Assembly (NCBI GenBank): GCA_038744685.1
Contig: JBCDMB010000004.1
Location: forward strand, 124,001 to 188,000
DNA from: Verrucomicrobiota bacterium
GTDB lineage: Bacteria; Verrucomicrobiota; Verrucomicrobiia; Opitutales; Puniceicoccaceae
Reading direction: 5' to 3'
DNA length: 64,000 nucleotides
A program made the position numbers and the translations under genes. Positions 16,923 to 43,858 of this stretch are shown here, piece after piece (position 1 is the stretch's first letter; each line of letters opens with the position of its first letter). The notes under the pieces were generated by a model. The model was not told the DNA's origin and made no database searches. It was given only the letters and a program-made list of their open reading frames with translations.

Positions 16923-17618
16923 ATGAATCACTACCCTAAAATCTCTACACTCGTTCTTTCCGTCGGTTCTGTCCTCTTCATTCAAGCGGCAAGCGCTTCT
17001 ACGTTGATCTTTACTGAGGGGTTTAATTCAGGCTTTTCTAGTCCTTACTCCGATGGTTTTGGAATTCGATATGGGATTACTGCTCCAGGCATCGTTTTAA
17101 GCCCCAATAGCGGCACGGTTGCAACTGAAGGCGACGCGTTTGCAGGTATGAACTCGAGCCAGACGAACACTACCCCCACAGTCATTTCAGGCATGGATAT
17201 AGACCTTGGAACGGTCACTGAAGAAGGAACGACTTACATTTTCACAGGGGAGTTTGGATGGCGCTTCGGTTCGGTGGCGGCAGCCAGCGATTTGGCCTTT
17301 AATAATGGCCAGACCGGCTTCCGTATTGGCACCGATACGAAGAAGGATGGCGTCGTGGCCGTGAACTTTGGAGAGGATTTCACAGCAGGCGTGTTCAACC
17401 AGGTGTCGTTTTCCTACACGACCGTCATCGGCGATGTGGGTCAGGATCTGGGTCTTCGGATCAGGCTCCAAGACAATGGCGCTGTGTCGGGACTGACACA
17501 ATTGCTTACAGATAACTGGCAAGTGACTTCGATTCCTGAGCCCTCGGCTGGCGGCGCCCTCATCGGCATTGGCTCGTTGGCACTCTTGACCTTACGGAGG
17601 CACAGGATCAGGACGTAG
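16923..17618 (+). CDS. PEP-CTERM protein sharing a module with the sulfatase at 29011
   Basis: 231 residues: signal peptide to about residue 25 (SVLFIQAASA), a beta-rich module (residues about 28-200), and a textbook PEP-CTERM tail (SIPEPSAGGALIGIGSLALL, then RRHRIRT). The module is clearly related to the last 170 residues of the sulfatase at 29011-31431: both have F-EGFNS-FS-PY, the block GMD-DLGTV, TYIFTG-FGWR-G-V-AA-DL, and SGLTQLL-D-W. It may be a lectin-like sugar-binding domain (inference). This copy carries the surface sorting signal, the sulfatase copy does not. An exosortase must be supplied from elsewhere. Confidence 0.8.
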   Translation: MNHYPKISTLVLSVGSVLFIQAASASTLIFTEGFNSGFSSPYSDGFGIRYGITAPGIVLSPNSGTVATEGDAFAGMNSSQTNTTPTVISGMDIDLGTVTEEGTTYIFTGEFGWRFGSVAAASDLAFNNGQTGFRIGTDTKKDGVVAVNFGEDFTAGVFNQVSFSYTTVIGDVGQDLGLRIRLQDNGAVSGLTQLLTDNWQVTSIPEPSAGGALIGIGSLALLTLRRHRIRT

Positions 17619-19505: not shown

Positions 19506-19855
19506 GGAACAAGATTCACCAAAACTCGAAGATATCACTATCTTTACTGTCCCCGTTTTGCTCTGTGTCAGCAGCTTCAAGATCTTTCTACAGACCATCA
19601 AGGGCCGTGCCGTCCTAACAGACAAGGTTCGGTTCATTCAAATTCAGAGGGCCCGCTGATGATTGGGAGAACGCCTGCGTCTGCGTTTGAGCCAATCTAC
19701 TCGGGGTAAGTAACCTCTCTCCCACATACTGAAAGCGTGTGGAATTTTTTGGCACAGCGATGCTAGATTTTGGCATGTAGGTGCGGGCAAAAAGTAGCTC
19801 GATATGGTAGATTTTCCTGCGCTGTTGCGTTATATTTTCATAGTACTCCGGAAGA
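19506..19855. other. Intergenic region carrying one operator motif
   Basis: 350 bases between the sulfatase and the pilin-like gene. It holds the operator-like motif at 19750-19775 and a TATATT box near 19831. No gene seen. Confidence 0.5.
19750..19775 (+). promoter_or_regulatory. Island operator motif, site 1
   Basis: TGGCA (19750), TGCTA (19761) and TGGCA (19771): three half-sites about one helical turn apart, the pattern shared with four other island promoters. It lies 80 bases before the pilin-like gene at 19856. The spacing suits tandem-helix AraC-type regulators. Confidence 0.65.
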
Positions 19856-20530
19856 ATGAAAGCCCCGAATAAAAAAGCATTTACTGTCATCGAGCTCCTA
19901 ACAGTGATAGCCGTGATCGCGGTTATCGGTGCGATCCTTATCCCTATTGTTGGTCGTTCCCGTGACTCCGCGAATCAGGCAAAGAGTGTTGCCAACCTCA
20001 GGCAAATTGGACTGGCAATACAAAGCTACGTAAATGACAATGGTGGGAAGTACCCCGAAGCGTGGCACTACGGAGACAAAGGCAAGCCGTGGTGCCGGGC
20101 AATTGAACCTTACGTTGGAATGGAAAGCGATGGCACGAAGCCCAACAACCTGTTTCGTTGTCCAGCGCTTGAAGAGGATCAGCACCATGGCTGGTCTGAC
20201 TATGGTTACAATGAGAATCTTGGAGTGGGTAAGCCCGATGATCGTGGCGTATCGGCGAGCGCCGCGAATATTCTAGAGCCGTCAAAGACCGTTTTAGTTG
20301 GTGATGCCGCGAATTTGGAAACCGGACAAGGCGCGTGGGTCTACCAAGCCTTGCAGTATGCTCGTGGTTGGCAAACAACCAACAATGTGCCTCATTTCCG
20401 TCATAACGGGATGGCAAATTTCGTGTTTCTCGACAACCATGCAGAGAGCTTGACGCAAGAGGAAGTTGAGCTCCGCAGGGAAGAAATGTTTGGCACCGAT
20501 CGTTTCTACGGCCCTGGGATCGGATTCTAG
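19856..20530 (+). CDS. Prepilin-like protein (type II secretion/DUF1559-like pseudopilin)
   Basis: 224 residues. The N-terminus is a prepilin cleavage and methylation signal: a short basic leader, then FTVIELLTVIAVIAVIGAILIP. The rest is a small globular head with the HxG-type ending usual in PVC pseudopilins (PHFRHNGMANFVFLDNHAESL). Such proteins are abundant in Verrucomicrobiota and Planctomycetota, often beside sulfatases, and are thought to form short periplasmic fibres or substrate-handling structures; the true role is unknown. It is preceded by the island operator motif. Confidence 0.88.
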   Translation: MKAPNKKAFTVIELLTVIAVIAVIGAILIPIVGRSRDSANQAKSVANLRQIGLAIQSYVNDNGGKYPEAWHYGDKGKPWCRAIEPYVGMESDGTKPNNLFRCPALEEDQHHGWSDYGYNENLGVGKPDDRGVSASAANILEPSKTVLVGDAANLETGQGAWVYQALQYARGWQTTNNVPHFRHNGMANFVFLDNHAESLTQEEVELRREEMFGTDRFYGPGIGF

Positions 20531-20647
20531 CCTGGTTTATTCAGCGGCTCTGCTAAAGCGGGAGTGTCTGTGTCTGAGGGCGATCAGAACAGAAGGGTTC
20601 ATCCTTTCGCTGGCTTTAATCTAATTATCGCTTCGAGCGCTGTTTTT

Positions 20648-20673
20648 TGGCAGGTTTTTGCTGTTTTCTGGCA
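20648..20673 (+). promoter_or_regulatory. Island operator motif, site 2
   Basis: TGGCA (20648), TGCTG (20659), TGGCA (20669), 69 bases before the giant gene at 20743; a TATATT box follows at 20705. Half-site spacing is identical to the other four sites. Confidence 0.65.
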
Positions 20674-20742
20674 CGGGTGTTCTAGCTGCTACCGAAATGG
20701 TGAGTATATTAGGCTAGAGGCAATAACGGAGTTCAACAATCG

Positions 20743-23700
20743 ATGAAGCATGTTCTTCGCTGGCCAAGAGACTGCCACCCAATAACCCGACGAAAACAAA
20801 TCGTGTCTAAAGTATTTGCCCACTTCTTTGGTACTTGGAAAAGCTGGATCTCCTGCCGTCTCTTTCTAGTGCTTAGCTGCCTCTTTGTGGCAAGCACTCT
20901 TCAAGCAGTTAACTGGCTTGGTCTGGAGGATAGTTCATGGGACAATAATGCGAACTGGCAGGGTGACGTGCCAGCATCCACAGCTGAGAGCGCATTTATT
21001 CAATTGACGGCTAACGACCCGGTAATTAGCAGCGGCAATCAGGTGTGTAATGACATTTTACTGCCGGCTGGGTGGCAGGGTGAAGGTGCGGCTTCGCTCA
21101 CGATTACTGGAGGCTCACTCAATGCGCGTAACATTTTCTGCGGGTCAACCAGCCCGGTTGCGCACACTGGGGTCTTAGTCGTTACTGGCGGTTCGGTCAA
21201 TCTAACTAGAGAGCTGTTTGTCGGTCATACGAGTGAGGGTGGTATTTTGGAAGTTTCAGGTGGAGATGTCACCATTGCATCGGGTTTAAGAATCGCTTTC
21301 ACGGACAGTGCTTATGGTCAGGTTACCCTGACTGGCGGCAGTGTTACGTGTTCTATCTTGACGATTGGTGCGAATGGTCTGCTGGACATTGCTGGCGGGC
21401 AGTTGACGATCACTAATCTCTCAGCGCGTATGGCGGTGCGGCTGCTGGTGGATCAGGGGAAAATCACTGCTTATGGCGGGCAGGGGAGATTGGTGTTCGG
21501 CAGCTCGGGAACGGACCTGGTATTGACAGCATACCGCATGGACGAGCTGGCACATGCGCCCAGTCCGGCAGATCTGGCTACGCAAATTGCCTCCGGTTTT
21601 TCTGCGCAGCTCTCGTGGACTCCGAGCGGCAGTGCTCTCAGTCACGACATCTACTTCAGTGCGGTTGCTGATGAGGTGATTGAGGGAGATCAGAACTCGC
21701 CGGCGTTCCAGGGTAACCAGCAGGAAACGACTTTTGATACGCCGGTATTGGAACCCAATACCGTTTATTATTGGCGGGTTGATGAGGTGACTGCCTCGAA
21801 TACGAATCCGGGAGAGGTGTGGAGTTTTCGCACGGATAACCCCGGTATAATCCGCCCGACCATTGGCGTCATTCGTTGGGATATGTATTCCGGTATGGCA
21901 GCGACGCAGCAGCAGGAGCTGGGCTACCTTCCCGGAGGTCAAGGATTTCTAGCCCCGGAAAAATGGAATTGGCGTGCACCGTTTTTCTGTCGCTACGTGG
22001 AGGATGTGCCGGAGATCGACCACGTTGCCAATGGTGCAACCGGACCGCTTTGGTTTAATTCGGAGGAGGACTTTTCACTCACGCGGGAGGTTACGGATCA
22101 GGAGATTGCTTTTGCGGGAACTGCCGGTGCTGGGCTCGATTACTGGATTTTTGGAACTGCACCCGCATCGGCCGGGGGTAATGGCTGGGGCCTCCACTGG
22201 AACCTCGATGCGTTGCTGCAGAGCGAGCGCCGCCAGGAAATCAATTATGCGATGATGTATCGGCTCGATCCGATCGATGACGTGCCGGAACTCGAAATGG
22301 CGATCGCAGAATTCGTCTGGCATGCAAAGCAATCGAATTATCAGACCGTGCTAAACGGTCGGCCTATTTTCTACTTTCTGAATTATAAGGATTTATCTCA
22401 GACATTTGGTGATCCAGCGGACGGCTCCAGCGTCGACGGACTCGCAATGGCTCTGCAGACCATTCGTGATCGGTTTGCTGCCGCCGGTCTTCCCAACCCT
22501 TACCTGGTAGCAAGTGCGGTACCAGCACATGCGCGAACTGAAGGGAATTGGATTGATGGCGGAGGATTCGATGCGGGGAATGATTACCGTGGTGCTTACG
22601 GCGGTACGACTGCTCCAGGCACATCTTTTGACGAATTAGGTGGCAATATTGAGCCATTTTGGAATTTGAATGGAACTGGCCTTTCTGCTGCGCTGGTTCC
22701 AGCAGCACCCTGTGGTGGAAACAACCTGCCTCGCTGGGAAAAAGGAACGGGTGGTGATTTTCATTATCAGGAGCCTGAGCCGGGAGATTTGACGAATTTG
22801 ATGAACCGCGTGATGAATTACATCGTCGAGAATCAAGTCGAGTGTGAAGCCAACACCTTTACGATGTACTCATGGAACGAGCACTCGGAAGGTGGCTTTC
22901 TTTGTCCATTAATTGGCGAACCACCCGAGTACATCCCGGTCACGTGGCGGTTAGATGAAGTAGGTGCTGCAGTTAACGCATATGAACCTCCTTCAGAGCC
23001 AGCGCTAGTGATGGTGCGGGCAGACGGAGTAGTGTTTTATACGGGAACCAGCACTTTCGAGCCCGTCTTGGCACTCGATCTAACCTCGGGTAGTGAGCTG
23101 GTGGTTGCTGCTGCTGCGGATGATCGTTATGTCTATGCATTGCTGGATAACGGTGATGTGGTGCGAGCCAACCTGCTCAATGGATATTTTAAAAATACAC
23201 GGGTGCTTGGCTCCTTCAGTAGCGTTACTACCGAGCTGGTAGGGTTAGATGTGAAAAATGGCGTAGTGACGGTCGTGGATGTTGAGGGCAATGTATACCA
23301 GGACTTCGATCCAGTTCCTTTTGCTGTATTAACCGGTTCAAGCTTTCGGGATTTTGCGATGCAGTCACCTACGGCATTCAGAGCGCTTTATGCTAGTGAC
23401 GGGACTCGTGCGTGGACGAGAGATGAATCTGATACATTCGTCAACTTCAGCAATAACAGCATCGGTACCGCGATTAGTAGTGAGGCCGGCAGTGGTTATT
23501 ATCTCATTAGATCCGATGGTTTAGCTTATGGTCCTGATAGTGGCTCCGTATACCAGGGTAACTTTGAGGGCGCCACAACCGATCTAACGGTTTTGGATTC
23601 TGGTGACATATATGCCATAGGCCAAGACGGACTGGTCATGCGACCACTGAGTGCTGGGAGTGTTACACCTTCGGAATGGTTTTTAGAGGTTGATGGATTG

Positions 23701-26550
23701 GTAGTGATGGAGGCGGAGCATTTCTCTAGCCAGAATCCGGGCACCAATGCCGCATCCGGCAGCACATGGACCACGACCACGTCCGAGGCTGGTTTTTCAG
23801 GCGACGCGGCGCTTGAAGTTACACCTAATGCCCAGGTCAATGTTCTAGATAGCGATGACGGCCCGCGGCTGGACTATGCCATTAATTTTCAGACGGCAGG
23901 CACCTATTATGTTTGGATTCGCACTTTAGGTCCTTCCGCACAAGACAATTCGCTCCATGCTGGCCTGGATGGTGTGATTGCTTCTACTGGTGGCAACGGA
24001 CTGGTTTCGAGTCGCCGCTGGGAATGGGTTAACGCTGTCAAAGCTAACTCCCTTACGCTGCAGGTTGATGCTCCCGGAGTTCACACCTTCAATGTGTGGA
24101 TGCGCGAAGACGGCACGCTCTTCGATAAGGCGATCTTGACTACGGATCCTAATTTTACACCGAGTTCGCAAGGACCGCCCGAAAGTGTTTTGCAGGATAG
24201 TAATATCGGGCAGGAAGAGAATGCGGGCGAGAAAGCGACCACTACGTTCGGGATAGCAGATTCAGGATCTTCCAGCTTTGTCGCGATTGATTGGCTCAAT
24301 GTCACGGCGTATGATGCCTTTGCGACACGTCCAAATATAATTGTCATACTCACAGATGACCATGGATATACCGACTTGGGTGTGCACGGTATCGATGCCA
24401 ACGTCGATACACCGGCAATGGATACGTTAATCAATAACGGTGCGTTGATGAGGCAGGGCTATTCCTCATCACCACAGTGTTCACCATCGCGGGCAGGTTT
24501 ATTGACTGGGCGTTATCAGAATCGTTTCGGACTCCGCACTAATAACGATCTTCCTTTGCCACTCACCGAAACGCTAAATGCCGAGCGAATTGGAGCAGCG
24601 GGTTACGTTACAGGGTTTGTAGGCAAGTGGCATGTGAGTGAGCCGGAAACGATTTATCCTCGACCAGACTCAGCATATGAACCCTCGCAACGCGGGTTTG
24701 AGGACTATTGGATCGGTAAGCGCAATCCGTATACGGCTAACTTTAATCTATCCGGGCAAAGCGTTGCACACCAGGTCATTAATGATTCACGAAACCGAGT
24801 TATTGTGCAGGGTGAAGCAGCAGAAGCATTTATTGAACGGAACGCCACGGATCCGTTTTATCTGCATTTGGCATTCTTTGGTCCACATGTTCCCAGAATT
24901 GATCTTACCGATCCATATTACACAAACTTCCCTGAGTTAGACTACCCCAACTATAGCGACGAACTCGACGATGTGCGGCGACAGGGTTTGGCAATGATTA
25001 AGGCGATAGATGATGCTGTCGATGGTATTATGCAAAAGCTCCGTGAACTGGGCATTGAGGAGGACACGTTAATTCTCTTTGCCAGTGATAATGGAGGTAA
25101 TCCTAAGTTCTTTGATGCAATACCAGGAACCGAGACGATCGAGAAGTGGACAGGATCTGAAAATATCCCTCGTCGGGGTGAAAAGGGCACCCTCTGGGAG
25201 GGGGGTATTAACGTGCCGATGTGGGCATATTGGAAAGGCGTGATTCCGGCTGGACAAGTGATCAATGAACCGGTGATAACGCTCGATTTTGCAACAACAG
25301 CCCTGAAGCTGGCTGGTGGAGTTGTTCCATCAAGTTACGATGGGGTAGATCTGATGCCACGCTTGTCGGGCCAGGTGCCATCTATTGCCCGCAGCGAACC
25401 GCTTTTCTGGGATTTCGGAAATGAAGGTGATGGTGAGCTTGCCATTCGCAAGGGTGACTGGAAGATGAGACGTTCCGGTGCGGGAGACTTTCTGTTCAAC
25501 ATCACCGAGGATCCCAATGAGTTAACCAACCTAGTCCATCTTCATCCGGAGATTCAGGCAGAACTTGAGGGTGATTTGGTTGCCTGGCAAGGTTCATTGC
25601 CTGCCGAAGGCCGTGCCTTTATGGGCGATACCCTCGGTGATTTGAATTACATCACCGGAGCGCCGGACGGGGCGAATGTTGATACACGTTATCTTTTGCC
25701 GTCTCAGGCATATCCGGCGGCGATTGCTTCGCCCGGTGCTCCGGATAGTAGTGATTCCGATGGGGATGGTATGAAGGACGTAGATGAGCTTGCATCCGGA
25801 CGAAATCCTAACCATGCGGGTGATTTGGCCTTTCAGTTCAACCAACCAGGGGACTTCAGATATTATTCCGAGGGTGATTTTGAGGGCTGGAAGCCCTCTG
25901 GTGTTACAGATCCAGCGGTTGTGAATGGTACTCTTACAGGACAGGCAGAATCAGACAGTCGTTTAATTCATAGCAGTCTTGGGTTCTCGGCCGATGAGGT
26001 ATCCTATCTTGTGGTGCGCATTCGCTCTCCCCAAGCGACTGCATTCCGACTCTATTGGGCGCACTTGGGAGATGATACGTTTGCAGGCTCCCGATTATTT
26101 TATACGACGTATAATAGCGGTCGGACAGAAACCATTGTCATTCCGATGGCAGGCCATGCAGAATGGGATGGGCAGACGATTACTCAACTCAGGATCAATC
26201 CGGTGGATGTTACCACCGAATTTGAAATTGATTATATTGCGGCTTCTGACGGGGACCTGGATGGCGACGGTTGGAGCGATACTGAAGAAGCAACTGCAGG
26301 CACCGATGCAGGCCGTGCCGATTCTGTGTTTACACTGGTGCCTTCGGCATCGGAATCTCCATCTAGTGCTTTTCAATGGCAGGGAAGAGCTGGGCGAAGT
26401 TATATAATCTGGTATTCGACTACATTGAGTCCTACGGATTGGAGTGTGTATGAGACCATTGAAGCATTAGCGAATGATCAAATTCTCGAGTTACCGATTT
26501 TGCCATCTGAGCCGAGGGCATTCTTCCGCGTTGAAGTAAGGTATCCCTAA
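20743..26550 (+). CDS. Giant exported WbsX-like hydrolase / CBM / sulfatase fusion
   Basis: 1935 residues. A basic leader and hydrophobic segment (about 38-56) suggest export. Domains in order: beta-helix-like repeats rich in TGGS (about 60-235); Fn3-like segment (275-368); WbsX/GH99-like barrel (370-745, with the YSWNEHSEGG block matching NAWNEWTEGS of the protein at 43859); beta-propeller-like region (750-980); carbohydrate-binding module opening VVMEAEHFS (985-1145); a full Cys-type sulfatase (1196-1625) with PNIIVILTDDHG, QCSPSRAGLLTGRY (Cys1246), GKWH and FASDNGG; then thrombospondin-3-like calcium repeats (DSDGDGMKDVDE near 1670, DLDGDGWSDTEE near 1839) around another beta domain. Combining glycosidase, binding and desulfation in one chain is unusual. 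It stands alone after operator site 2. Confidence 0.85.
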   Translation: MKHVLRWPRDCHPITRRKQIVSKVFAHFFGTWKSWISCRLFLVLSCLFVASTLQAVNWLGLEDSSWDNNANWQGDVPASTAESAFIQLTANDPVISSGNQVCNDILLPAGWQGEGAASLTITGGSLNARNIFCGSTSPVAHTGVLVVTGGSVNLTRELFVGHTSEGGILEVSGGDVTIASGLRIAFTDSAYGQVTLTGGSVTCSILTIGANGLLDIAGGQLTITNLSARMAVRLLVDQGKITAYGGQGRLVFGSSGTDLVLTAYRMDELAHAPSPADLATQIASGFSAQLSWTPSGSALSHDIYFSAVADEVIEGDQNSPAFQGNQQETTFDTPVLEPNTVYYWRVDEVTASNTNPGEVWSFRTDNPGIIRPTIGVIRWDMYSGMAATQQQELGYLPGGQGFLAPEKWNWRAPFFCRYVEDVPEIDHVANGATGPLWFNSEEDFSLTREVTDQEIAFAGTAGAGLDYWIFGTAPASAGGNGWGLHWNLDALLQSERRQEINYAMMYRLDPIDDVPELEMAIAEFVWHAKQSNYQTVLNGRPIFYFLNYKDLSQTFGDPADGSSVDGLAMALQTIRDRFAAAGLPNPYLVASAVPAHARTEGNWIDGGGFDAGNDYRGAYGGTTAPGTSFDELGGNIEPFWNLNGTGLSAALVPAAPCGGNNLPRWEKGTGGDFHYQEPEPGDLTNLMNRVMNYIVENQVECEANTFTMYSWNEHSEGGFLCPLIGEPPEYIPVTWRLDEVGAAVNAYEPPSEPALVMVRADGVVFYTGTSTFEPVLALDLTSGSELVVAAAADDRYVYALLDNGDVVRANLLNGYFKNTRVLGSFSSVTTELVGLDVKNGVVTVVDVEGNVYQDFDPVPFAVLTGSSFRDFAMQSPTAFRALYASDGTRAWTRDESDTFVNFSNNSIGTAISSEAGSGYYLIRSDGLAYGPDSGSVYQGNFEGATTDLTVLDSGDIYAIGQDGLVMRPLSAGSVTPSEWFLEVDGLVVMEAEHFSSQNPGTNAASGSTWTTTTSEAGFSGDAALEVTPNAQVNVLDSDDGPRLDYAINFQTAGTYYVWIRTLGPSAQDNSLHAGLDGVIASTGGNGLVSSRRWEWVNAVKANSLTLQVDAPGVHTFNVWMREDGTLFDKAILTTDPNFTPSSQGPPESVLQDSNIGQEENAGEKATTTFGIADSGSSSFVAIDWLNVTAYDAFATRPNIIVILTDDHGYTDLGVHGIDANVDTPAMDTLINNGALMRQGYSSSPQCSPSRAGLLTGRYQNRFGLRTNNDLPLPLTETLNAERIGAAGYVTGFVGKWHVSEPETIYPRPDSAYEPSQRGFEDYWIGKRNPYTANFNLSGQSVAHQVINDSRNRVIVQGEAAEAFIERNATDPFYLHLAFFGPHVPRIDLTDPYYTNFPELDYPNYSDELDDVRRQGLAMIKAIDDAVDGIMQKLRELGIEEDTLILFASDNGGNPKFFDAIPGTETIEKWTGSENIPRRGEKGTLWEGGINVPMWAYWKGVIPAGQVINEPVITLDFATTALKLAGGVVPSSYDGVDLMPRLSGQVPSIARSEPLFWDFGNEGDGELAIRKGDWKMRRSGAGDFLFNITEDPNELTNLVHLHPEIQAELEGDLVAWQGSLPAEGRAFMGDTLGDLNYITGAPDGANVDTRYLLPSQAYPAAIASPGAPDSSDSDGDGMKDVDELASGRNPNHAGDLAFQFNQPGDFRYYSEGDFEGWKPSGVTDPAVVNGTLTGQAESDSRLIHSSLGFSADEVSYLVVRIRSPQATAFRLYWAHLGDDTFAGSRLFYTTYNSGRTETIVIPMAGHAEWDGQTITQLRINPVDVTTEFEIDYIAASDGDLDGDGWSDTEEATAGTDAGRADSVFTLVPSASESPSSAFQWQGRAGRSYIIWYSTTLSPTDWSVYETIEALANDQILELPILPSEPRAFFRVEVRYP

Positions 26551-26567
26551 ACGTTTACGCTTCTTTT

Positions 26568-26593
26568 TGGCATTAACGTGCTACTTTATGGCA
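26568..26593 (+). promoter_or_regulatory. Island operator motif, site 3
   Basis: TGGCA (26568), TGCTA (26579), TGGCA (26589), 28 bases before the GH106-like gene at 26622; a further TGGCA lies at 26603. It heads the longest operon of the island (26622-38964). Confidence 0.65.
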
Positions 26594-26621
26594 GCAAAGG
26601 AATGGCAGCCAGACTTTAAAG

Positions 26622-28997: not shown

Positions 28998-29010
28998 GAA
29001 CTAGTTTCTA

Positions 29011-31431: not shown

Positions 31432-31602
31432 AGAGCGGAGCGTCTTTAACGTGAACAAAACACAGGTTTTGGCTCTCGCGAATACCATTCTTGTCAATCA
31501 AGGGAAGTAGATGGTCAATCGGCGAAATTAGTAGTAAACGATGAAGAATCCGTTCCACATGGCAGGAGAGGGTCCAGGTCTGTTTCTATTTGTGCCGAGT
31601 CA

Positions 31603-34520: not shown

Positions 34521-34556
34521 AGTTCTGAAGAAGGCTGCAAGTCTCGATACCGTTTC

Positions 34557-37526
34557 ATGAAGTTTGAAAACCTAGATACTCTTTTTCAGCAGTGGTTGGA
34601 TCCCTCAGTAGAATTTCGGGGTAAGCCCTTCTGGAGCTGGAACGGTAAGTTGGAGAAAGAGGAGTTATGCTACCAGATCGATGTGATGAAGGAAATGGGT
34701 ATGGGGGGCTTTTTCATGCACGCTCGTACCGGTCTCGAAACAGAGTATCTTGGTCAGGAATGGTTTGATCTGATCAACACCTGTGCGGAATATGCAAAAG
34801 GTCTTGGTCTCGAGGCGTGGATTTACGACGAGGATCGGTGGCCTTCAGGGCTTGCGGGCGGAATCGTATCAAAGCACCCCGAGTTTCGACAGAAGGCTAT
34901 TCTACTAGAGGTTGATCCTGAGGGAGAGGGTGAACAGGTTATTGCCGAGTTTGATTGTGATCTCGATGGAGCGGTTTGCACTAATTTAGGTTCCGGTAAT
35001 AAGACGATCCGCTTCTCGGTGGTCGAACAGGGTAAGTCGGGTTTTTATAATGGCTTCACTTACGTAGATACAATGAACCGCGAGGCGACTGAAGCCTTTC
35101 TGCACTGCACTCACGAGAGGTACGCGAAGGAGTGTGGCAGGCTGCTCGGGAAGTCCATTAAGGGAGTTTTTACTGACGAACCTCATCGTGGTGCGCTGCT
35201 GGATGGGTTCTCAATGTATATGGAGAATGGCGGAATGACCGTTCCTTACACGCAGAAGCTGTTTCAAGAGTTTAAAGCACGTTTTGGTTATGACCTTATC
35301 CCGAAGTTACCTGAGCTGTTTCTGCAGGTAAATGGTAAGCGGATTTCACCAGTGAAGTGGAATTTTGTTGAATTACTGCAGCAGCTTTTTCTGGAGAATT
35401 TCGCAATTCCTTGCGGTGAGTGGTGCGAAAAGCACAATCTTGTTTTAACTGGGCACGTTTTACATGAAGACAATCTCACAGCCCAGACTGCAATGTCAGG
35501 ATCGGTGATGCGCTATTACGAGTATATGGGCGCACCAGGAGTAGATATTTTAGGTAAGGACAACCTAAATTACTGGGTCGTAAAACAACTTAGATCGGCG
35601 GCACGTCAAACCGGTAAGACACATCTTCTCTCTGAGCTTTACGGGTGCACGGGTTGGGAATTACCGTTTTCTGGCCACAAAGCGATAGGGGATTGGCAGA
35701 CACTACTAGGCATCAATTTTCGCTGTCATCATCTGTCGTGGTATACGATGCGAGGCGAGGCTAAGCGTGATTATCCAGCTAGTATCTTGCACCAATCGCC
35801 ATGGTATAGAGAATATTCTCACGTCGAAGACTATTTTGCCCGTTTCGGATTAATGATGACTCAGGGTGATCCGATCTGTGATCTACTTGTACTTAATCCC
35901 GTCGAGAGTTTTTGGGCACAGATTCATCTTGGCTGGTCCAAAGAATTGGAGTTGCAGAACTCGCATATGAGAGCTTTGGAAAGGAACTACCAAACTCTTT
36001 CTACTTGGTTACTGGAATCTCAAATTGATTTCGACTATGGAGATGAATCGATGCTCTCGAAAATGGGCAGAGTAGAGGATGGCGCACTAGAAGTTGGGCT
36101 TGCCAGATATAAGGTAGTTCTGATTTCAGGTGTCGAAACGATCCGCTCGTCCACTGTTGCATTGTTAGATCAATTTGTTGCCGCCGGTGGTAGTGTAGTC
36201 ATTGCTGGAGACGCACCCACACATGTAGACGCTTGTGAATCATCAGTTTTCCAGTCGAATCTCGGTGGCTACAAGCACGTTGCCTTCACGAAGTCAGACG
36301 TTTTGGCCGTTGTGCCGAAAGCCCTTGCGACTGTCGCTGCGCCCAACGTTTTCGGCCAACTGCGTGCGGTGAATAGTGGTCTAATATTTGCCGCTTTGAG
36401 TGTGAACCGGGAGGACCGACTTAAGCAGGTAACCGTTCGCATCCAGACGGATTTACCAATATCAGAATGGGATTGCACAAGCGGTGAAGTAGCAAGAGTG
36501 GACTCGACAAAAGAGGAAGGCTGGCAGGTCTTTAAGACCGACTTCCCGGTTGGGGGTCAGAAACTTTGGGTAGCTCACTCTTATGAACCGCCTGTGGCGA
36601 GGTGTTCTTTGCAGCCTCTTCGTGACGATGCATTTGATGCGACCGTTGACGGTCCTTTTGACTATTCTCTGATGGAGCCAAATATTTGTGTGCTCGATTT
36701 CGCTTCCTACCGGATCGATGGTAAGGATTCGCTAGACGAGACTGAAGTTCTCAAAATTGACCAGCAGGTCCGCGATGCGCATTCCGTTATGCGACGAGGC
36801 GGAGCGATGCTTCAACCTTGGTATGTCGCTCAGAAACCGATTAAGGAGTTGTGTCATCTGAATCTGAGTTACTCTTTTGAGATCGACGTAATGCCTGAAT
36901 GGGTAGACTTGGTTATCGAAGAACCTGAAAGATTTAAGGTCGAAGTTAATGATCAAATTCTTGATCTCTCCAATTCGAAGCGATGGATCGATATCGCATT
37001 TCACCGTTTCCGTATACCCGCTCGTGCTCTGCGGGTGGGCGAAAATTCGATTGTTTTGAGGACACGCTACACTGAAAATAGTAACGTGGAGGCAGTGTAC
37101 TTGCTTGGTGATTTTGCCGTTCAACTTGAGGGTGTCAAAAGACGTTTGTCATCAATCCCTAAGAGAATCAGCGTCGGGGACTTATGCATTCAGGGTTTTC
37201 CGTTTTATTCCGGCTCGATCAGATATAGGTTTCCACTTCCGGAAGGGACGAGTCATATTCGCTTGCCGGAGTTTGGTGGTGCTTGTGCGAAGATTAATGG
37301 CCAAGTGGTTGGTTGGGACCCCTATGAAGCAGAGGTGTCAGGAGCGACTGTCGAAGTGGAGGTTGTTGTTGATCGGCATAATACTTTCGGACCTTTGCAC
37401 GATAGGGAGCAGAATCGTTACTGGAACTCTCCGGCTCTATGGGTTACCGAGGGTGACGAGTTCGATCCTAGTCCTGTGCTGCATCCAAGTGGCCTGCTTG
37501 CTGCTCCAATGATTGCGTGTAAGTAG
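34557..37526 (+). CDS. GH106-like glycoside hydrolase (alpha-L-rhamnosidase-like), cytoplasmic
   Basis: 989 residues, no signal peptide. The N-terminal barrel has the typical opening FRGKPFWSWNGKL, MGMGGFFMHARTGLETEYL, then WIYDEDRWPSGLAGG and IKGVFTDEPHRG with a candidate catalytic Glu. A Rossmann-like domain (about 500-640) and C-terminal jelly rolls with galactose-binding look (about 780-960) complete the family layout. GH106 enzymes release alpha-L-rhamnose, but large parts of this clan are uncharacterised, so the sugar is not certain. Located 36 bases after a cytoplasmic sulfatase in one operon, fitting intracellular breakdown of desulfated oligosaccharides. Confidence 0.78.
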   Translation: MKFENLDTLFQQWLDPSVEFRGKPFWSWNGKLEKEELCYQIDVMKEMGMGGFFMHARTGLETEYLGQEWFDLINTCAEYAKGLGLEAWIYDEDRWPSGLAGGIVSKHPEFRQKAILLEVDPEGEGEQVIAEFDCDLDGAVCTNLGSGNKTIRFSVVEQGKSGFYNGFTYVDTMNREATEAFLHCTHERYAKECGRLLGKSIKGVFTDEPHRGALLDGFSMYMENGGMTVPYTQKLFQEFKARFGYDLIPKLPELFLQVNGKRISPVKWNFVELLQQLFLENFAIPCGEWCEKHNLVLTGHVLHEDNLTAQTAMSGSVMRYYEYMGAPGVDILGKDNLNYWVVKQLRSAARQTGKTHLLSELYGCTGWELPFSGHKAIGDWQTLLGINFRCHHLSWYTMRGEAKRDYPASILHQSPWYREYSHVEDYFARFGLMMTQGDPICDLLVLNPVESFWAQIHLGWSKELELQNSHMRALERNYQTLSTWLLESQIDFDYGDESMLSKMGRVEDGALEVGLARYKVVLISGVETIRSSTVALLDQFVAAGGSVVIAGDAPTHVDACESSVFQSNLGGYKHVAFTKSDVLAVVPKALATVAAPNVFGQLRAVNSGLIFAALSVNREDRLKQVTVRIQTDLPISEWDCTSGEVARVDSTKEEGWQVFKTDFPVGGQKLWVAHSYEPPVARCSLQPLRDDAFDATVDGPFDYSLMEPNICVLDFASYRIDGKDSLDETEVLKIDQQVRDAHSVMRRGGAMLQPWYVAQKPIKELCHLNLSYSFEIDVMPEWVDLVIEEPERFKVEVNDQILDLSNSKRWIDIAFHRFRIPARALRVGENSIVLRTRYTENSNVEAVYLLGDFAVQLEGVKRRLSSIPKRISVGDLCIQGFPFYSGSIRYRFPLPEGTSHIRLPEFGGACAKINGQVVGWDPYEAEVSGATVEVEVVVDRHNTFGPLHDREQNRYWNSPALWVTEGDEFDPSPVLHPSGLLAAPMIACK

Positions 37527-37548
37527 GAGTCAATTTTGAATAGAACGA

Positions 37549-38964
37549 ATGTGTTCCATGAATACGCGTCCGAATATCTTGTTCATTAACCTAGATCAGC
37601 TGCGTTATGATTCTCTTGGGTTTACGGGGCATCCTTTTGTAAAAACACCTAACATCGACAAGTTAGCGTCCGGTGGTATACAGTTTGATTCAGCATACAC
37701 GCCACTACCGAGTTGTTGTCCTTCGAGACAGTGTTTGATTACTGGTGTAATGCCCGAGCAGCACGGTGGTATGTGGAATTACGGAGGAGGTGGTTCGCTG
37801 CCTATCCCTTCAATAGATCCGAACCGCGATATGTGGTTGCGTCTACTGCAAGGGGCTGGTTATCGCACCGCATATTTTGGAAAGTGGCACGTGCATCCTG
37901 ACCTCGATCCGACAGCTTTCGGCTTCGATAGTTTCGAAGATCCTCCGAATGATAACTATGAAACGCCACACAAGGCGGTAAAGCATGTCATTGAGAACAA
38001 TCCATGGCCTGAGTTTCCTATCGGGTATTACGAGACTCTGCCGTTTGAAGAGTGTCATACACATGTTCTGGCAAGAGATTGTATAGAAACGATAAAGACA
38101 CTTTCAGACGATGGAGCACCTTGGCATATTCGGTTGGACTTTTCGGAGCCACATCTGCCATGCGTGCCAGCTGAGCCTTTTGCTTCGATGTATCCGCCTG
38201 AGACGATACCTCCATGGGAAAATTTCGATGAGAGTTTTGATGGCAAGCCATACATTCAGAAGCAGCAGTTACGAAACTGGAAACTGGAAGATTGGAGTTG
38301 GAAAGAGTGGTCAGTTTATCTCTCCGGCTACCTTGGTATTATTTCTCAAGTGGATGATGCAATTGGAAGGGTCGTAGAAACTCTAGAGAATCATGATTTG
38401 CGAAAGGATACTTTGATCATCTTTACCACGGACCACGGTGATGCCGCGGGCAGTCATCGGCAGATTGACAAGCACTACGTTATGTACGAAGAGGAGACGC
38501 ATGTTCCTCTGGTTCTCAACTGGGATGGTGTCATAAATCCTAATACAACGTGTAATGACTTCCTGAGTCATTTTTTAGATCTACCAGTCACTTTGCTTGA
38601 TCTTCTAGAGTTGCCGGTGCCGAGGTCTTTCCAAGGTCGAAGTTTTCTACCCCAACTGTGCGGAAAGAAGGCTAAGAATCCTCGCCGTTTTGCCTTTAGC
38701 ACTTACAACGGTCAGCAGTTTGGCTTGTTTTGCCAACGTATGATCCGCGATCAGAACTATAAATATGTTTGGAATGCGACGGACGTGGACGAATGCTATG
38801 ACCTCGTAAAGGATCCATTCGAAATGAACAATCTTGCAGCAGAGAATGAAGATTCGGAGCTCTGTCGATGCTATCGAAGGAACCTTTATGAAGTGTTTTC
38901 TGATTTGAATGATCCATTGGTGACGGGCTTCTGGAACAAGCGGTACCTTACGAGTCAGCCCTAG
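37549..38964 (+). CDS. Cytoplasmic-type sulfatase, Cys-type
   Basis: 471 residues; ATG 37558 (MNTRPNILFINLDQLRYD) is an equally good start. No signal peptide. The formylglycine motif is SCCPSRQCLITG, where the first of the two Cys fits C-x-P-x-R. GKWHVHPDL, FTTDHGDAAGSHR and EEETHVPLVLNW follow. It is a paralogue, not a copy, of the sulfatase at 33111 and probably removes a differently placed sulfate. Last gene of the operon that starts at 26622; a short inverted repeat (CCCTAG/CTAGGG, 38959-38980) overlaps its stop codon. Confidence 0.92.
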   Translation: MCSMNTRPNILFINLDQLRYDSLGFTGHPFVKTPNIDKLASGGIQFDSAYTPLPSCCPSRQCLITGVMPEQHGGMWNYGGGGSLPIPSIDPNRDMWLRLLQGAGYRTAYFGKWHVHPDLDPTAFGFDSFEDPPNDNYETPHKAVKHVIENNPWPEFPIGYYETLPFEECHTHVLARDCIETIKTLSDDGAPWHIRLDFSEPHLPCVPAEPFASMYPPETIPPWENFDESFDGKPYIQKQQLRNWKLEDWSWKEWSVYLSGYLGIISQVDDAIGRVVETLENHDLRKDTLIIFTTDHGDAAGSHRQIDKHYVMYEEETHVPLVLNWDGVINPNTTCNDFLSHFLDLPVTLLDLLELPVPRSFQGRSFLPQLCGKKAKNPRRFAFSTYNGQQFGLFCQRMIRDQNYKYVWNATDVDECYDLVKDPFEMNNLAAENEDSELCRCYRRNLYEVFSDLNDPLVTGFWNKRYLTSQP

Positions 38965-39337
38965 TTTGATTGATCTAGGGATTATTGCTTTACTGACGCT
39001 CACGGGGCCGAAGTTTGCACGGAAGACTACAATCGCACTACTCCAGAATACCTTGTTACTCTTTGCCTATCTCGAAAGCGGATGCATTCGTTCATGGCTC
39101 TAGTTCGCAGGGCGTTAGCAATTTTGACCGTTGGCAAGATCCTGCTTATCTTTGGCATGAATTGTAAGGTTTTGGCATCAGAGCAAATTGTATTCTGTTG
39201 AGGGTGGGCGGTTCGAAACGCTCCGCACAGTATGACCCAACTAACACGCCTAAAGGCATACAGTTGCCCGGGAGTAATTTGAGAAAAATCCCTAACTAAC
39301 TACCCAATGCTCTCAATACAGACCCAAGCCTTAGATA
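38965..39337. other. Intergenic region with operator motif
   Basis: 372 bases holding operator site 4. A 39-codon frame (39082-39201) reads like a signal peptide (LAILTVGKILLIFG) but has no body after it, so I do not call a gene. Confidence 0.5.
39132..39157 (+). promoter_or_regulatory. Island operator motif, site 4
   Basis: TGGCA (39132), TGCTT (39143), TGGCA (39153), with an extra TGGCA 20 bases further (39173). It lies 180 bases before ATG 39338, or 300 before the preferred start 39458, which is further than at the other sites. Confidence 0.6.
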
Positions 39338-39457
39338 ATGAGAACCTCAGATAAACAAGAGTTCGAAGGAGGAATATGTATTCATGCCGTTTCTGAAACT
39401 GAATCAAACGGACTGGAGGCTTCACCGCCCAGAAAGCCATCGCGAAGGTTTCAAGTT

Positions 39458-42400
39458 ATGTCGGTAGAACAGGAGTCGAATCGACATGGGTTTGCTCTCG
39501 TAATTGCGCTAAGCTTGATGGCGTTGATACTTCTGCTCTTAGTTTCACTAACCACTCTTGTAAGTATTGAAGCTCAAGCATATCAATCAGAAGCGGTAAC
39601 ACTGGAAGCTCACAATCAATCCTTGATGGGTCTGTCCATTGCACTTGGTGAGCTTCAGAGATTCGCTGGTCCTGATCAGCGGGTAACAACGAACGCAACA
39701 GTTAATGCGGAGCTCAATGCAACGAGCCAAGCCGGCGCTCGACATTGGACAGGGGTTTGGGGAAACGCTAACAGCCCAAACGCCGCAGTAAGTGCTCCGG
39801 TATTGTTGAATTGGCTCATTAGTGGAAATCAACGGCAGCCCTTAGCAGTGAGTAACGATGGGAGTGTAACGGGAACAAGTGTTTCATTTGCTCCGGATGA
39901 TCCGATTGTCTTTAATGGTGATAATACCACGGTGAATAGCCAGCGTGCCTCGGTACTTGTCGGTGGAGGGACTGTTGATAACGTTGCGGACTCAGTTGTC
40001 GTCCCGATTGTTCCAATCTCTGGAGACAATGGCAATCCTGTTGGAGGCTACGCTTATTGGGTAGGTGATGAAGGAATCAAAGCTAACGTGAGTTTAACCG
40101 AAGGTGCTAACTTGAGAGTTAACGCGGATAGCTCCCCCTTAGGCACAACAGCCGTCAGACGCGTTCAGGCGAGCCAGGGTAGTGATACCGCTGCTCAACT
40201 AATAGAGACATCGGTAGATGGAGGGAGTGAATGGGGAACGGGGTATGATCTGAATGATCCAGGGTTCTTAAGCAGCCTCGATAGGCTCGGAGATTTCCCT
40301 GATCTAAGTTTGATCGCGTCAACTCCGCAAGAGTTACTCGGCAATCGATTTCATGATATTACCGTTCAAAGTAGGGGAGTTCTTGCGGATTCCTTGTCGG
40401 GTGGCCTCAAAACAGATCTTTCTCTGGCCTTTGAAATGCCGGAAACTGATTTCGACCAAACGAATATGGTCCAACAGAGTCCCGATGGTCATGTTGTCTC
40501 ATTTCAGGGTGTTTACGGACCTAAATGGAAGGTGTTTCGCGACTATTATCGTCTGTATAAGTCGGTCGAAACCCCCAACGAGACGCCTTTGCTGGAAACC
40601 CAGTTAGTGACTCCGTTGCCGCCTGAAGATCCTGACCTTGGAATTCCTTATCTTTTCGGTGGTTCTGACGGTGATCAGCTTCGTGACCGTACTACCGAAA
40701 ACACAACGATACCGGGGTATCCCAATGCTCATAACCTCCCTCCTGCGGTACGTGATGTTATTTTTCCCGAGAGGATGAAGGTTTCACCTGTATTGGCTGA
40801 CTTGAAATTCCTGATTTCTGTCGATACGGAGCTTCTCGCGAGCCAGAGGCAAGTCATGATTGGTTCTGCTGGAAGCAGCATCCTTGCAGACCGCAAAATG
40901 CGTTTGGTGATCGATCCCATCGTCAAGTTGTGGAACCCTTACAATGTCCGTCTAAAATTTGATGCATTTACAATAAGAACCAGCCATTTGCCACTGGGCT
41001 TCAAATGGGATATTCAATACCCGAACGTTGTGGGTGGTGGATCTGAAAACTACATCACTCAGCAGACACACTTGAGAGCATTCCTGAATAAATATTACGG
41101 GAGTGGTTTCGGCAATTTTGGGAATTGGCTTGATTCCATTGTCGTATCCGTTGGAGATCCGGAAGGAGTAGTGCTGGAGCCCGGCGAGGTAAAGATCTTC
41201 TCATCGGGTGAGGTATCACCGATACCGTTTCCTGACCGCACTACAGATCACATGGATTTAGTTGCAGGGTGGGAAGACCAAGGAGGCTACCAGCTGGATG
41301 TAATCGACCCCTCGAATACTAGCACAAACTCCCAAATAATGGCCGATGAGGAGACGGAGTTCTCCGTGGAAATGACAAGTCGTTCACCTGAGTCTGGTTG
41401 GAATTTTTTTATGATCAGCACATATCTCTTTAGCGAGGGACAATACGAGATACGACATGATGTAAAAGAATCTAGTTCAGCTGACTTCTACAACACGGCA
41501 TTTTATAGGATCAGATCAAATGCCATACCATTTACTGTCTCCGGCGCTCTCGGGGGAGATACTATCCGAAGTCCTTCTGGCGTTCAACGATGGCCACTGC
41601 CTGCACCTGGGGATAAACAGTACCTTATGACTATTGAGTTGAATCTGAAGGCGGAGGACGAGCTCGAAAACCCAGTACCGTTTGCTCAATTCTCTCCCAC
41701 AGCATATGTCAACAGCTACGAACAAAATTCGGTCAGTAACTTGAGAGTGGGACCTGCGAATACCATTCGTTATCGAAAAATCAATAATCAGGCCGATGCT
41801 GATATCCAGTATGATGCCACAACAAATCGGGGATACTATGGTTCGAGTCATAGTGTCAGTGGCCAAACGCATGTGCCTCTCCTTGACATTCCCCACTATC
41901 CTCTCTTCTCGATTGGACAATTACAGAATGCAGATACGTCCTTATATGCAGTAGATCCCTTACTAGCGGTAGGCAACTCGTTTGCTTCGCCCCAACTGCC
42001 TGCAAGCGAGTTGGCGGGTATTCAGGTTAACCGCTCCCGTATTGATACTGCCTACTTGCTCAACAGAACACTTTGGGATAAGTACTTTTTTTCGACGCTA
42101 GCGCCCCAAGATACAGAGCTTTTCAGAGAGGATCGCAGTATCCGTGATGTTGTTGAAGCTGTGTTTGAAGAAGGCCAGATTGCATTAAATCCCAACTTCA
42201 AGAGATTCGAATCAAATTCTTCTTCTGCTGAATCTACGTTGCTTGTTGGCGAAAGAATCGCTCTTGATGCTCCTGAACGATCAGCAGCGTTTCTTCTGCA
42301 AGACGGACAGTTCAATGTAAACTCAACTTCTAAAGAGGCGTGGAGAAGCTTTCTGGGCAGTCGTTACCGAGGTGAGATACCCATACTCGAACGAGAAACG

Positions 42401-43033
42401 GGATCAGTTTTACCCAGACAGGATCAAGGCGTGCCGGTAAGCAGGTTTAGTCTGCCAATTAGCGGCAATGATGCCGGTAATTTGTGGGAAGGTTATCGTA
42501 GTCTGAGTGAAGGAGAACTGGATTCGTTGACTGATGCTGTGATTGATGAAATCCGCGACCGTGGACCTTTTCTTACTCTGGGTGATTTCGTCAATCGTGA
42601 TTTGGCCGACGGTGGTAAACGAGGACTACTGGACCGCGCAATCGAAGCAGCAGACGTAAATCAAATCTACACCAAAGTAGTTGAATCCAGTGATTTGAAT
42701 TATTTACCCTCAGATGCTCGTGCAAGCGTTGAAGGGTCGAGGGCTCAGGGAGCAGCAAAATTTGTTCTTCAGGGAGATATACTCAGCCAGGTTGGGCATC
42801 GTATGGCGACGCGATCTGATACTTTTCGAATACGTGCGTATGGAGAAGTTGTTAGTCCAAACACAAGAGAAGTTATCGGCCAATCATGGGTTGAAGCGCT
42901 TGTCCAAAGAGTACCTGACTATGTCGATTCTGTTACAGATCTTCCTTGGGAAGATCCTAGCGGAATGAATCAGAGTTTCGGTCGCCGTTTCGTAATAACT
43001 TCACTTCGTTTTCTACGGGAGGAACAGATCTAG
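39458..43033 (+). CDS. Verru_Chthon cassette A-like pilus-assembly (PilX-type) protein
   Basis: I prefer ATG 39458 (1191 residues); the frame is open from ATG 39338, but those 40 residues are polar and precede the usual start. A prepilin-like membrane segment opens the protein (HGFALVIALSLMALILLLLVSLTTLV), with no Glu at position 5, as in PilX/GspK-type minor components. The long remainder is an exported beta-rich region without repeats. Size and N-terminus match the Verru_Chthon cassette protein A family of Verrucomicrobiota, of unknown function. The next gene starts directly after its stop (TAGATG). Expression under the same motif as the polysaccharide enzymes suggests a joint role. Confidence 0.65.
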   Translation: MSVEQESNRHGFALVIALSLMALILLLLVSLTTLVSIEAQAYQSEAVTLEAHNQSLMGLSIALGELQRFAGPDQRVTTNATVNAELNATSQAGARHWTGVWGNANSPNAAVSAPVLLNWLISGNQRQPLAVSNDGSVTGTSVSFAPDDPIVFNGDNTTVNSQRASVLVGGGTVDNVADSVVVPIVPISGDNGNPVGGYAYWVGDEGIKANVSLTEGANLRVNADSSPLGTTAVRRVQASQGSDTAAQLIETSVDGGSEWGTGYDLNDPGFLSSLDRLGDFPDLSLIASTPQELLGNRFHDITVQSRGVLADSLSGGLKTDLSLAFEMPETDFDQTNMVQQSPDGHVVSFQGVYGPKWKVFRDYYRLYKSVETPNETPLLETQLVTPLPPEDPDLGIPYLFGGSDGDQLRDRTTENTTIPGYPNAHNLPPAVRDVIFPERMKVSPVLADLKFLISVDTELLASQRQVMIGSAGSSILADRKMRLVIDPIVKLWNPYNVRLKFDAFTIRTSHLPLGFKWDIQYPNVVGGGSENYITQQTHLRAFLNKYYGSGFGNFGNWLDSIVVSVGDPEGVVLEPGEVKIFSSGEVSPIPFPDRTTDHMDLVAGWEDQGGYQLDVIDPSNTSTNSQIMADEETEFSVEMTSRSPESGWNFFMISTYLFSEGQYEIRHDVKESSSADFYNTAFYRIRSNAIPFTVSGALGGDTIRSPSGVQRWPLPAPGDKQYLMTIELNLKAEDELENPVPFAQFSPTAYVNSYEQNSVSNLRVGPANTIRYRKINNQADADIQYDATTNRGYYGSSHSVSGQTHVPLLDIPHYPLFSIGQLQNADTSLYAVDPLLAVGNSFASPQLPASELAGIQVNRSRIDTAYLLNRTLWDKYFFSTLAPQDTELFREDRSIRDVVEAVFEEGQIALNPNFKRFESNSSSAESTLLVGERIALDAPERSAAFLLQDGQFNVNSTSKEAWRSFLGSRYRGEIPILERETGSVLPRQDQGVPVSRFSLPISGNDAGNLWEGYRSLSEGELDSLTDAVIDEIRDRGPFLTLGDFVNRDLADGGKRGLLDRAIEAADVNQIYTKVVESSDLNYLPSDARASVEGSRAQGAAKFVLQGDILSQVGHRMATRSDTFRIRAYGEVVSPNTREVIGQSWVEALVQRVPDYVDSVTDLPWEDPSGMNQSFGRRFVITSLRFLREEQI

Positions 43034-43717
43034 ATGATAATCGAGACCACAGTTCGTCTCAGATCTATCCTGATACTTGCGATATGTGGCCTTTTCGTAG
43101 CTGGTTCACATGGTGAGGAGGAGTCCGAAGTAAGTTTTTCCTTCAGGACCCTTTTTCTTGATTCACCGAGTCGAGAATTTACTTTTTTGAGTGAGGGCGA
43201 GATTCGCCCATTTCCAATTGGATTCGACCTCTTATCAAAGCGAGCAAGTTATCGTGGTGACGGAAGTTTGATGATTTTCTCTCAAGAACCAAACCTTGAG
43301 AAAGATCTAGAAGATCAGGCTGTTGCCACAGTTTCCTTCGTTAGAACAGATTCCATGGTAACTTTGATCTGTTTTGATACCGGTGATAAACTGGAGTGTT
43401 TAAAAGTCGACAGTGATTTCGGGGTTTTCCCAAAAGGGACTTTCTGCTTTATCAATGCAACGGCCGATCAGGTTGTGGGGCTTTTGGGAGAAGAGAGGAT
43501 TTCAATCAGCCCCGGAAGTCTATTCAAGGCCAAGGCTGAGGATTTTGATACAAGAAGAGTCCCTATCAAAATGGCCTACTTGGATGATGCTGGAGAGTGG
43601 CGTGTCTTTTATTCATCGAAGTGGACGATGCTAGGAGAGAAGCGTTCCTTCATAATAATCTATTGGGACGAACAGAGCAGGAGATTGCGTGCAAGGGGAG
43701 TGAATTTCAGTGACTAG
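43034..43717 (+). CDS. Hypothetical exported protein, partner of the pilin-like giant
   Basis: 227 residues with a signal peptide (SILILAICGLFVAGSHG). The body is a compact beta-rich domain: SFSFRTLFLDSPSREFTFL, then CFINATADQVVGLLGEERISISPGS, then WRVFYSSKWTMLGEKRSF. I do not recognise a named family, but this type of short secreted protein is often found directly after Verru_Chthon A-like genes (general impression). The ATG abuts the preceding TAG, so the two proteins are very likely made together and may interact in the periplasm. Confidence 0.75.
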   Translation: MIIETTVRLRSILILAICGLFVAGSHGEEESEVSFSFRTLFLDSPSREFTFLSEGEIRPFPIGFDLLSKRASYRGDGSLMIFSQEPNLEKDLEDQAVATVSFVRTDSMVTLICFDTGDKLECLKVDSDFGVFPKGTFCFINATADQVVGLLGEERISISPGSLFKAKAEDFDTRRVPIKMAYLDDAGEWRVFYSSKWTMLGEKRSFIIIYWDEQSRRLRARGVNFSD

Positions 43718-43787
43718 CGACTCAGAGGAGGAGTTTTCCCTTCATCGCTTGGCCCTTTTTTCATTTTTGCGAGACCATCAGTAGCGC

Positions 43788-43813
43788 TGGCACAGCCGTG
43801 CTAACTAATGGCA
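43788..43813 (+). promoter_or_regulatory. Island operator motif, site 5
   Basis: TGGCA (43788), TGCTA (43799), TGGCA (43809), 45 bases before the WbsX-like gene at 43859. Confidence 0.65.
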
Positions 43814-43858
43814 CGTGAGTTATGGTTTGGTCTTTTGTTCGTGTGTATTCTTATCTGA

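Follow-up and report, generated by a model that had tools for sequence, protein, structure and literature searches.

A 38-bp direct-repeat operator upstream of six units in a Verrucomicrobiota sulfatase island, with a proposed AraC-type regulator

At araBAD of Escherichia coli, the araI1-araI2 operator consists of direct half-sites 21 bp apart, with two boxes each, lying at about -69 to -35. AraC with arabinose, as bound to araI1-I2, recruits RNA polymerase (PMC4760080). For several L-rhamnose regulators, namely the AraC-type RhaR proteins of Bacillales, Bacteroides and Enterococcus, operators have been predicted that are direct repeats of 21-bp period and that serve sugar catabolism, with RhaR and RhaS of E. 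coli binding inverted repeats of 17-bp half-sites (PMC3870299). Described here is a 38-bp operator that is present six times in one sulfatase-rich island of a Verrucomicrobiota bacterium (contig JBCDMB010000004.1, positions 124,001 to 188,000; this 64-kb stretch is ‘the window’, and coordinates are window positions). The island also encodes an AraC-type protein which is proposed to bind these sites:

45057..46022, - strand: AraC-type regulator with cupin/AraC_binding N-terminus and HTH_18 C-terminus (Pfam/NCBIfam), proposed binder of the six sites

We consider it highly probable, going by the sequence, that a dimer of this local AraC protein on the 38-bp operator would activate a six-unit sulfated-glycan regulon.

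Six sites in one island

The pattern TGGCA-N6-TGCT-N6-TGGCA has five exact matches in the window, all on the + strand, versus 0.00 expected from 100 dinucleotide shuffles. An earlier, sequence-only reading of this DNA had placed five copies on the coding strand at 19750, 20648, 26568, 39132 and 43788, with half-sites starting at offsets 0, 11 and 21, and all of this was borne out. Each exact copy lies between genes and points the same way as an island transcription unit, and the whole assembly containing the window (3.64 Mb, 56 contigs) holds no further exact copy, as well as 0 matches to a control pattern. Genome-wide scans were of patterns with mismatches, rather than of a matrix. At up to two mismatches there are 39 matches versus 21 for the reversed control pattern. 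At one mismatch there are five additional matches, four of them inside or overlapping open reading frames (ORFs) and one upstream, at 16829, where TGCG replaces TGCT, 94 nt before a same-strand gene at 16923. The six sites, that is, form one cluster, in one orientation, each upstream in one island.

A gap-free alignment of these six sites has offsets 27 (G), 31 (G) and 36-37 (GG) also kept, and the sites of relatives reveal a fourth box, TTAAGG or TCAAGG, at offset 32-37. The full site thus is one of 38 bp, i.e., A1 (TGGCA, offset 0)-N6-B1 (TGCT, 11)-N6-A2 (TGGCA, 21)-N6-B2 (T[TC]AAGG-like, 32), which is to say, as seen across the own sites and those of relatives, two A-B half-sites forming a direct repeat of 21-bp period. 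Among the sites of the protein-first test described below, A1 and A2 are identical at 6.2/9 positions versus 2.2/9 in shuffles. The motif as first reported is the upstream two thirds of this operator; its three half-sites are real, but the sixth site, the fourth box and a conserved -10 element had been missed. The operators are as follows:

16829..16866, + strand: sixth operator, complete (A1-B1-A2-B2) with TGCG as the one mismatch, TGGCATAATTATGCGGGTTTATGGCACGCATGTTAAGG, upstream of the PEP-CTERM-like gene 16923-17618
19750..19787, + strand: operator upstream of the pilin-like gene 19856-20530; orthologous site in Coraliomargarita sp. SDUM461004 (L066 -6401)
20648..20685, + strand: operator upstream of the giant GH115_C/sulfatase fusion 20743-26550
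26568..26605, + strand: operator upstream of the GH106-like/sulfatase/GPH symporter run 26622-38964; orthologous sites L065 -15789 and L150 -8857
39132..39169, + strand: operator upstream of the gene pair 39338-43033 and 43034-43717
43788..43825, + strand: operator upstream of the WbsX-like gene 43859-45064; orthologous sites L065 -1413 and L069 -14807

When the pattern is extended to 38 bp with the B2 box of the relatives, at up to three mismatches, it finds five sites in the own genome, all in the island, with 0 in controls. Random-like occurrence across the genome, which the earlier reading had named as what would count against it, thus is not what is seen, with the exact copies confined to the island and the extended pattern found there only.

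That all copies lie within one island could be viewed as indicating chance, or instead a mobile repeat that was copied before island genes. The probability of this is, in our estimation, virtually nil. It is an explanation already refuted by the expectation of 0.00, by linkers which differ and flanks which are unrelated, and by the same promoters in other families keeping boxes over linkers. The differing linkers had been taken earlier as a mark of selection, and differ they do, yet they are not wholly free, with offsets 18-19 being TT in most copies (5/6 at each position).

Those other families are of the same order, where AraC orthologues that are 68-73% identical occur in Coraliomargarita sp. 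SDUM461004, Pelagicoccus mobilis and an Opitutia metagenome-assembled genome (MAG); a further orthologue, 42% identical, occurs in a Kiritimatiellales MAG. Across orthologous promoter pairs, boxes are identical at 84/100 positions versus linkers at 44/90 (84% vs 49%), and the comparison of orthologous islands which the earlier reading had proposed accordingly has the motif at the same promoters, with boxes retained over linkers. A matrix for which only the six own sites were used was run across 932 kb of fetched loci, of which some were duplicates and some had been chosen by motif. Its best matches outside of the own genome (23-30 bits) are only at AraC-orthologue loci, those of Coraliomargarita and of the Kiritimatiellales MAG, with P. 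mobilis scoring lower (13 bits). The Coraliomargarita sites precede a WbsX-like gene, a pilin-like gene, the GH operon and PEP-CTERM/autotransporter-like genes. Those of P. mobilis precede a WbsX-like gene and a sulfatase, and another contig has two strong sites, one before the orthologous GH operon and the other before an additional gene. In the same-genus genomes scanned, both the exact motif and an orthologous AraC are absent, the latter absence suggesting that the island has moved horizontally, and exact-motif matches in four other members of the order are all inside ORFs.

Promoter geometry and mode of action

A TANNNT hexamer begins at offset 57-59 in 20/20 sites from five genomes, versus 5.8% at control offsets (p 2e-25), with the own sites alone supplying 6/6 (p 4e-8). 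With this hexamer taken as the -10 element, the operator would span about -70 to -33, overlapping the -35 region, with B2 in the position of the -35 box. The downstream half-site, that is, would lie over the -35 region of a sigma-70 promoter in all 20 cases. The predicted elements of the window are these:

16887..16892, + strand: predicted -10 TAAGTT, offset 58
19808..19813, + strand: predicted -10 TAGATT, offset 58
20705..20710, + strand: predicted -10 TATATT, offset 57
26626..26631, + strand: predicted -10 TAGTAT, offset 58
39191..39196, + strand: predicted -10 TATTCT, offset 59
43846..43851, + strand: predicted -10 TATTCT, offset 58; ATG 7 nt beyond its end, hence a leaderless mRNA is predicted

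Two of these promoters bear as well on gene starts. In three orthologous WbsX-like genes (43846-43861, L065 near 1340 and L069 near 14736) the ATG is found 7-9 nt past the end of the predicted -10, and leaderless WbsX-like mRNAs therefore are predicted as a conserved property. The ORF start TTG 26622, in turn, precedes the predicted transcription start (about 26638), and the true start of the GH106-like gene therefore is probably TTG 26679 or later.

A sigma-54 promoter pairs TGGC with TTGC, at a GG-to-GC distance of 10 nt and with the GC invariant at -12. As TGGCA resembles the -24 element, with GG and GC just one base short of that distance, the motif itself might instead be the promoter of an alternative sigma factor, of sigma-54 or ECF type. 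The sequence-only reading had hinted at as much, and the 9-nt distance from GG to GC that it gave is present in six copies. The hint itself, however, is rejected. First-pair spacing is one base short in all six, no GC is found at the -12 position after either TGGCA nor 10 nt past the second GG, and a sigma-70-like -10 is present at a fixed downstream offset at 20/20 sites, which together rule out sigma-54. As the A-box word changes also with the neighbouring AraC protein, an alternative sigma factor of any sort strikes us as extremely improbable.

Under the mechanism proposed here, an AraC/cupin dimer (45057-46022) would occupy the 38-bp operator with its monomers head to tail and 21 bp apart. 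Within each monomer the first helix-turn-helix (HTH1) would read one A-box (TGGCA) and the second (HTH2) one B-box (TGCT or T[TC]AAGG-like). The promoter-proximal monomer would cover -38 to -33, thereby replacing the -35 contact, and would recruit RNA polymerase. The trigger would be an inducer sugar in the cupin domain, with the regulator acting as an activator. Activation is the most likely mode because the downstream monomer would be at the -35 position, with a sigma-70-like -10 at a fixed distance.

The contrary mode is that AraC, when bound to these sites, represses or serves as an autoregulatory anti-activator, with island genes on when binding is lost. Occupying the -35 region could block RNA polymerase as well, and AraC itself represses, absent inducer, through a distant site (PMC4760080). 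The A1-A2 direct tandem nevertheless abuts the -35 region, without a recognisable -35 hexamer, and this is the active araI1-I2 arrangement (PMC4760080 for function), such that we view repression as rather unlikely.

The AraC protein and its recognition helices

The C-terminal domain of the window AraC matches PF12833 (2.7e-25) and PF00165 (1.1e-19), i.e., it has the two HTHs of the AraC/XylS family, and its N-terminus is by domain match a sugar-sensing cupin (AraC_binding; PF02311, 3.7e-8). Its HTH1 helix reads SRRSFYRAF and its HTH2 helix DSNYFSRQF, and its genome has no other member of the clade at E 1e-50. That an AraC operator regulon is involved had been suggested by the sequence-only reading, with proximity as its ground for linking the protein to the sites, and this link is supported by co-occurrence in both directions, by the divergent sites of 59/87 homologues, and by covariation of A-box with recognition helix.

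Starting with the pattern, the extended version at one mismatch matches eight of 388 phylum genomes. Three of the eight (G000, G035 and G444) have an AraC orthologue, and new matches in G436, G617 and G558 each adjoin an AraC homologue, with the G558 site overlapping a long reading of that homologue's ORF. Matches in G448 and G478, which are coding and without an AraC neighbour, were rejected as sites. Looser matches, in G444 and G652, likewise adjoin AraC homologues, and the sites of G617 (L152) and G652 (L155) face a divergent GH106-like gene.

Starting instead with the protein, 87 homologues of the window AraC group were collected from throughout Verrucomicrobiota on the basis of protein similarity. 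A divergent site scoring at least 18, the threshold used, is present in 59/87, mostly at most 20 nt from the gene, versus 1/87 in opposite orientation and 0/261 among shuffles; six or more of the 87 loci (L161-L164, L214 and L231) had been examined earlier, and the scoring rule was derived from earlier sites. Operators of the same layout but with other A-box words (TGGGA, TCGTA, TGACA, TGTCG, TGCAT) are seen divergent to many AraC genes of the phylum (L151-L155, L161-L247). In G444 (L154 9015, 11283) two or more such regulators are present whose A-boxes differ, one being TGGC[AG] and another TGTC[AG], and the latter regulator has two sites as well; these apparently would be separate, parallel regulons in one cell.

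Among the protein-first sites both the B-boxes (RTGCT, TCAAGG) and the HTH2 helix (D-S-N-Y-F-[ST]-R-Q-F) are near constant. Variation is seen in the A-box word (TGGCA, TGGCG, TGTCG, TGGGA, TGACA, TCGTA and others), though within a site A1 and A2 carry the same word or nearly so. With helix positions defined as the model's match columns, A-boxes are more alike where the HTH1 helices are more alike (r 0.51; partial r 0.46 when the remainder of the protein is allowed for; 0/2000 permutations), a relation not seen with the HTH2 helix (r 0.02). Given Arg at position 3 of the HTH1 helix (Arg3), the word is TG[GT]C in 17/17, versus 0/47 without that Arg (p 7e-16), though these helix and A-box counts are from related proteins, so that p-values overstate independence. 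Arg3 requires five changes on the maximum-likelihood tree (bootstrap range 3-5), and its association with TG[GT]C looks to have arisen repeatedly, a single origin being less likely. The window AraC has Arg3 (SRRSFYRAF) and its own sites read TGGC.

It seems to us reasonably probable, then, that this Verrucomicrobiota AraC clade employs one modular operator, with constant B-boxes (RTGCT and T[TC]AAGG) read by a near-invariant HTH2, a variable A-box, present twice at a distance of 21 bp, read by a variable HTH1, and Arg3 specifying TG[GT]C. If so, then the sequence alone would reveal the glycan regulons of the clade's regulators, also where an organism offers few genetic tools.

Proteins of PhoB/OmpR type would likewise suit half-sites set in tandem at the helical pitch, and a response regulator of that type could be imagined on three or four head-to-tail half-sites of 10-11-bp pitch, with the AraC neighbour incidental. 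Alternate boxes differ, however (TGGCA/TGCT/TGGCA/TTAAGG), and the period is 21 bp, not 11. Furthermore, sites found by pattern only adjoin AraC genes, homologues found by protein only have sites, the A-box follows the AraC HTH1, and the island proteins that were scanned include none recognised as a response regulator. We consider this explanation very unlikely.

Several observations nonetheless weigh against the proposed AraC mechanism. The AraC gene is convergent with the WbsX gene and, unlike most homologues, has no such site upstream of itself, and 28/87 homologues are without a site at score 18. Three own sites out of six have a weak B2 (TGCGGG, TTCTAG, GAATGG), the -10 of the 16829 site is poor (TAAGTT), and some orthologous sites have decayed, e.g., A1 of the Coraliomargarita GH operon is CTTCA. 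To these may be added the relatedness of the proteins behind the Arg3 counts, and also that activation, versus repression, is suggested by position only.

The proposed regulon and its relation to known systems

The units that would make up the regulon are the following:

16923..17618, + strand: PEP-CTERM-like secreted protein, by sequence, with tail PEPSAGGALIGIGSLALLTLRRHR; proposed member, with no Pfam/NCBIfam match
19856..20530, + strand: pilin-like protein (N-methylation) with prepilin N-terminus, by domain searches; proposed member
20743..26550, + strand: 1935-amino-acid fusion of GH115_C and sulfatase domains, by domain search; proposed member
26622..38964, + strand: six same-strand genes, GH106-like, sulfatase, GPH symporter, sulfatase, GH106-like and sulfatase (Pfam/NCBIfam); proposed member
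39338..43717, + strand: two genes without assigned function, domain searches being without matches; proposed member
43859..45064, + strand: WbsX-like (PF14307) protein, by Pfam; proposed member

The gene pair had been called ‘Verru_Chthon-like’, a label that finds no support from NCBIfam, with no match at 0.01. From 18075 to 38964 the island has five sulfatase-domain proteins, four of them in regulon units, along with two GH106-like proteins (a rhamnosidase family; one falls under the Pfam cut-off) and a GPH symporter. Our guess is that these point to a sulfated, perhaps rhamnose-containing polymer as substrate, with the six units together serving, as proposed, as a coordinated system for such a polysaccharide.

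By eye, the PEP-CTERM-like protein resembles the C-terminal part of sulfatase 29011-31431, with ISGMDIDLGTV...YIFTGEFGWRFGSVAAASDL of the former alike to IGGMDLNLGTV...YIFTGKFGWRYGPVSAARDL of the latter, as if one domain existed both free and fused. A second sorting-tail-like protein, 15548-16222, is just upstream of the island, is without a site of this kind, and perhaps does not belong to the regulon. At the other end, an ATP-dependent DNA ligase gene (46500-48026) adjoins the AraC gene and borders the island.

Verrucomicrobiota have many sulfatase and glycan islands, the control of which has been little studied. A validated operator would reveal which genes act jointly on a given substrate; in the present island these would be genes for sulfatases, GH106-like enzymes and a transporter, along with surface proteins of PEP-CTERM-like and pilin-like kinds. 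Should the A-box rule hold at the bench, then it would allow sequence-based prediction of regulons for many uncharacterised AraC proteins, and it also would probe the way in which specificity is set by a single HTH where a protein has two. Within the literature searched, which did not cover most subscription journals, we found no report of the operator, the regulon or the A-box rule in this phylum, nor any paper on AraC operators in Verrucomicrobiota. The operator layout is of a known kind, as is the mechanism proposed, with the regulon and the phylum-wide A-box rule appearing to be undescribed.

The likeness to E. coli AraC on araI1-I2 is one of two direct, two-box half-sites, 21 bp apart, which abut the promoter core such that the downstream one would recruit RNA polymerase. 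The box words nonetheless are unrelated, six promoters of one island are involved here, and the window regulator shares with AraC only general AraC domains (57 bits with the NCBIfam AraC model vs a cut-off of 208). The best NCBIfam model for the window AraC is that of E. coli RhaS, and GH106-like genes, i.e., of a rhamnosidase family, are among its proposed targets. It misses, however, the equivalog cut-offs of both RhaS and RhaR (134.7 vs 288 and 121.5 vs 363 bits), and the operator is a direct repeat rather than the inverted repeat of those E. coli proteins. The RhaR regulators of Bacillales, Bacteroides and Enterococcus do share the 21-bp direct-repeat periodicity, though these are of other phyla, with other motifs, and control monosaccharide catabolism versus, here, a sulfatase island; the available portion of that source reports no helix/box rule for them (PMC3870299). 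Protein residues have been compared with motif positions across a family for GntR and IclR factors (PMC4494728, PMC8222616). The evidence is of the same type as that presented here, where the proteins instead form a single AraC clade and, of their two HTHs, the first alone varies with the site.

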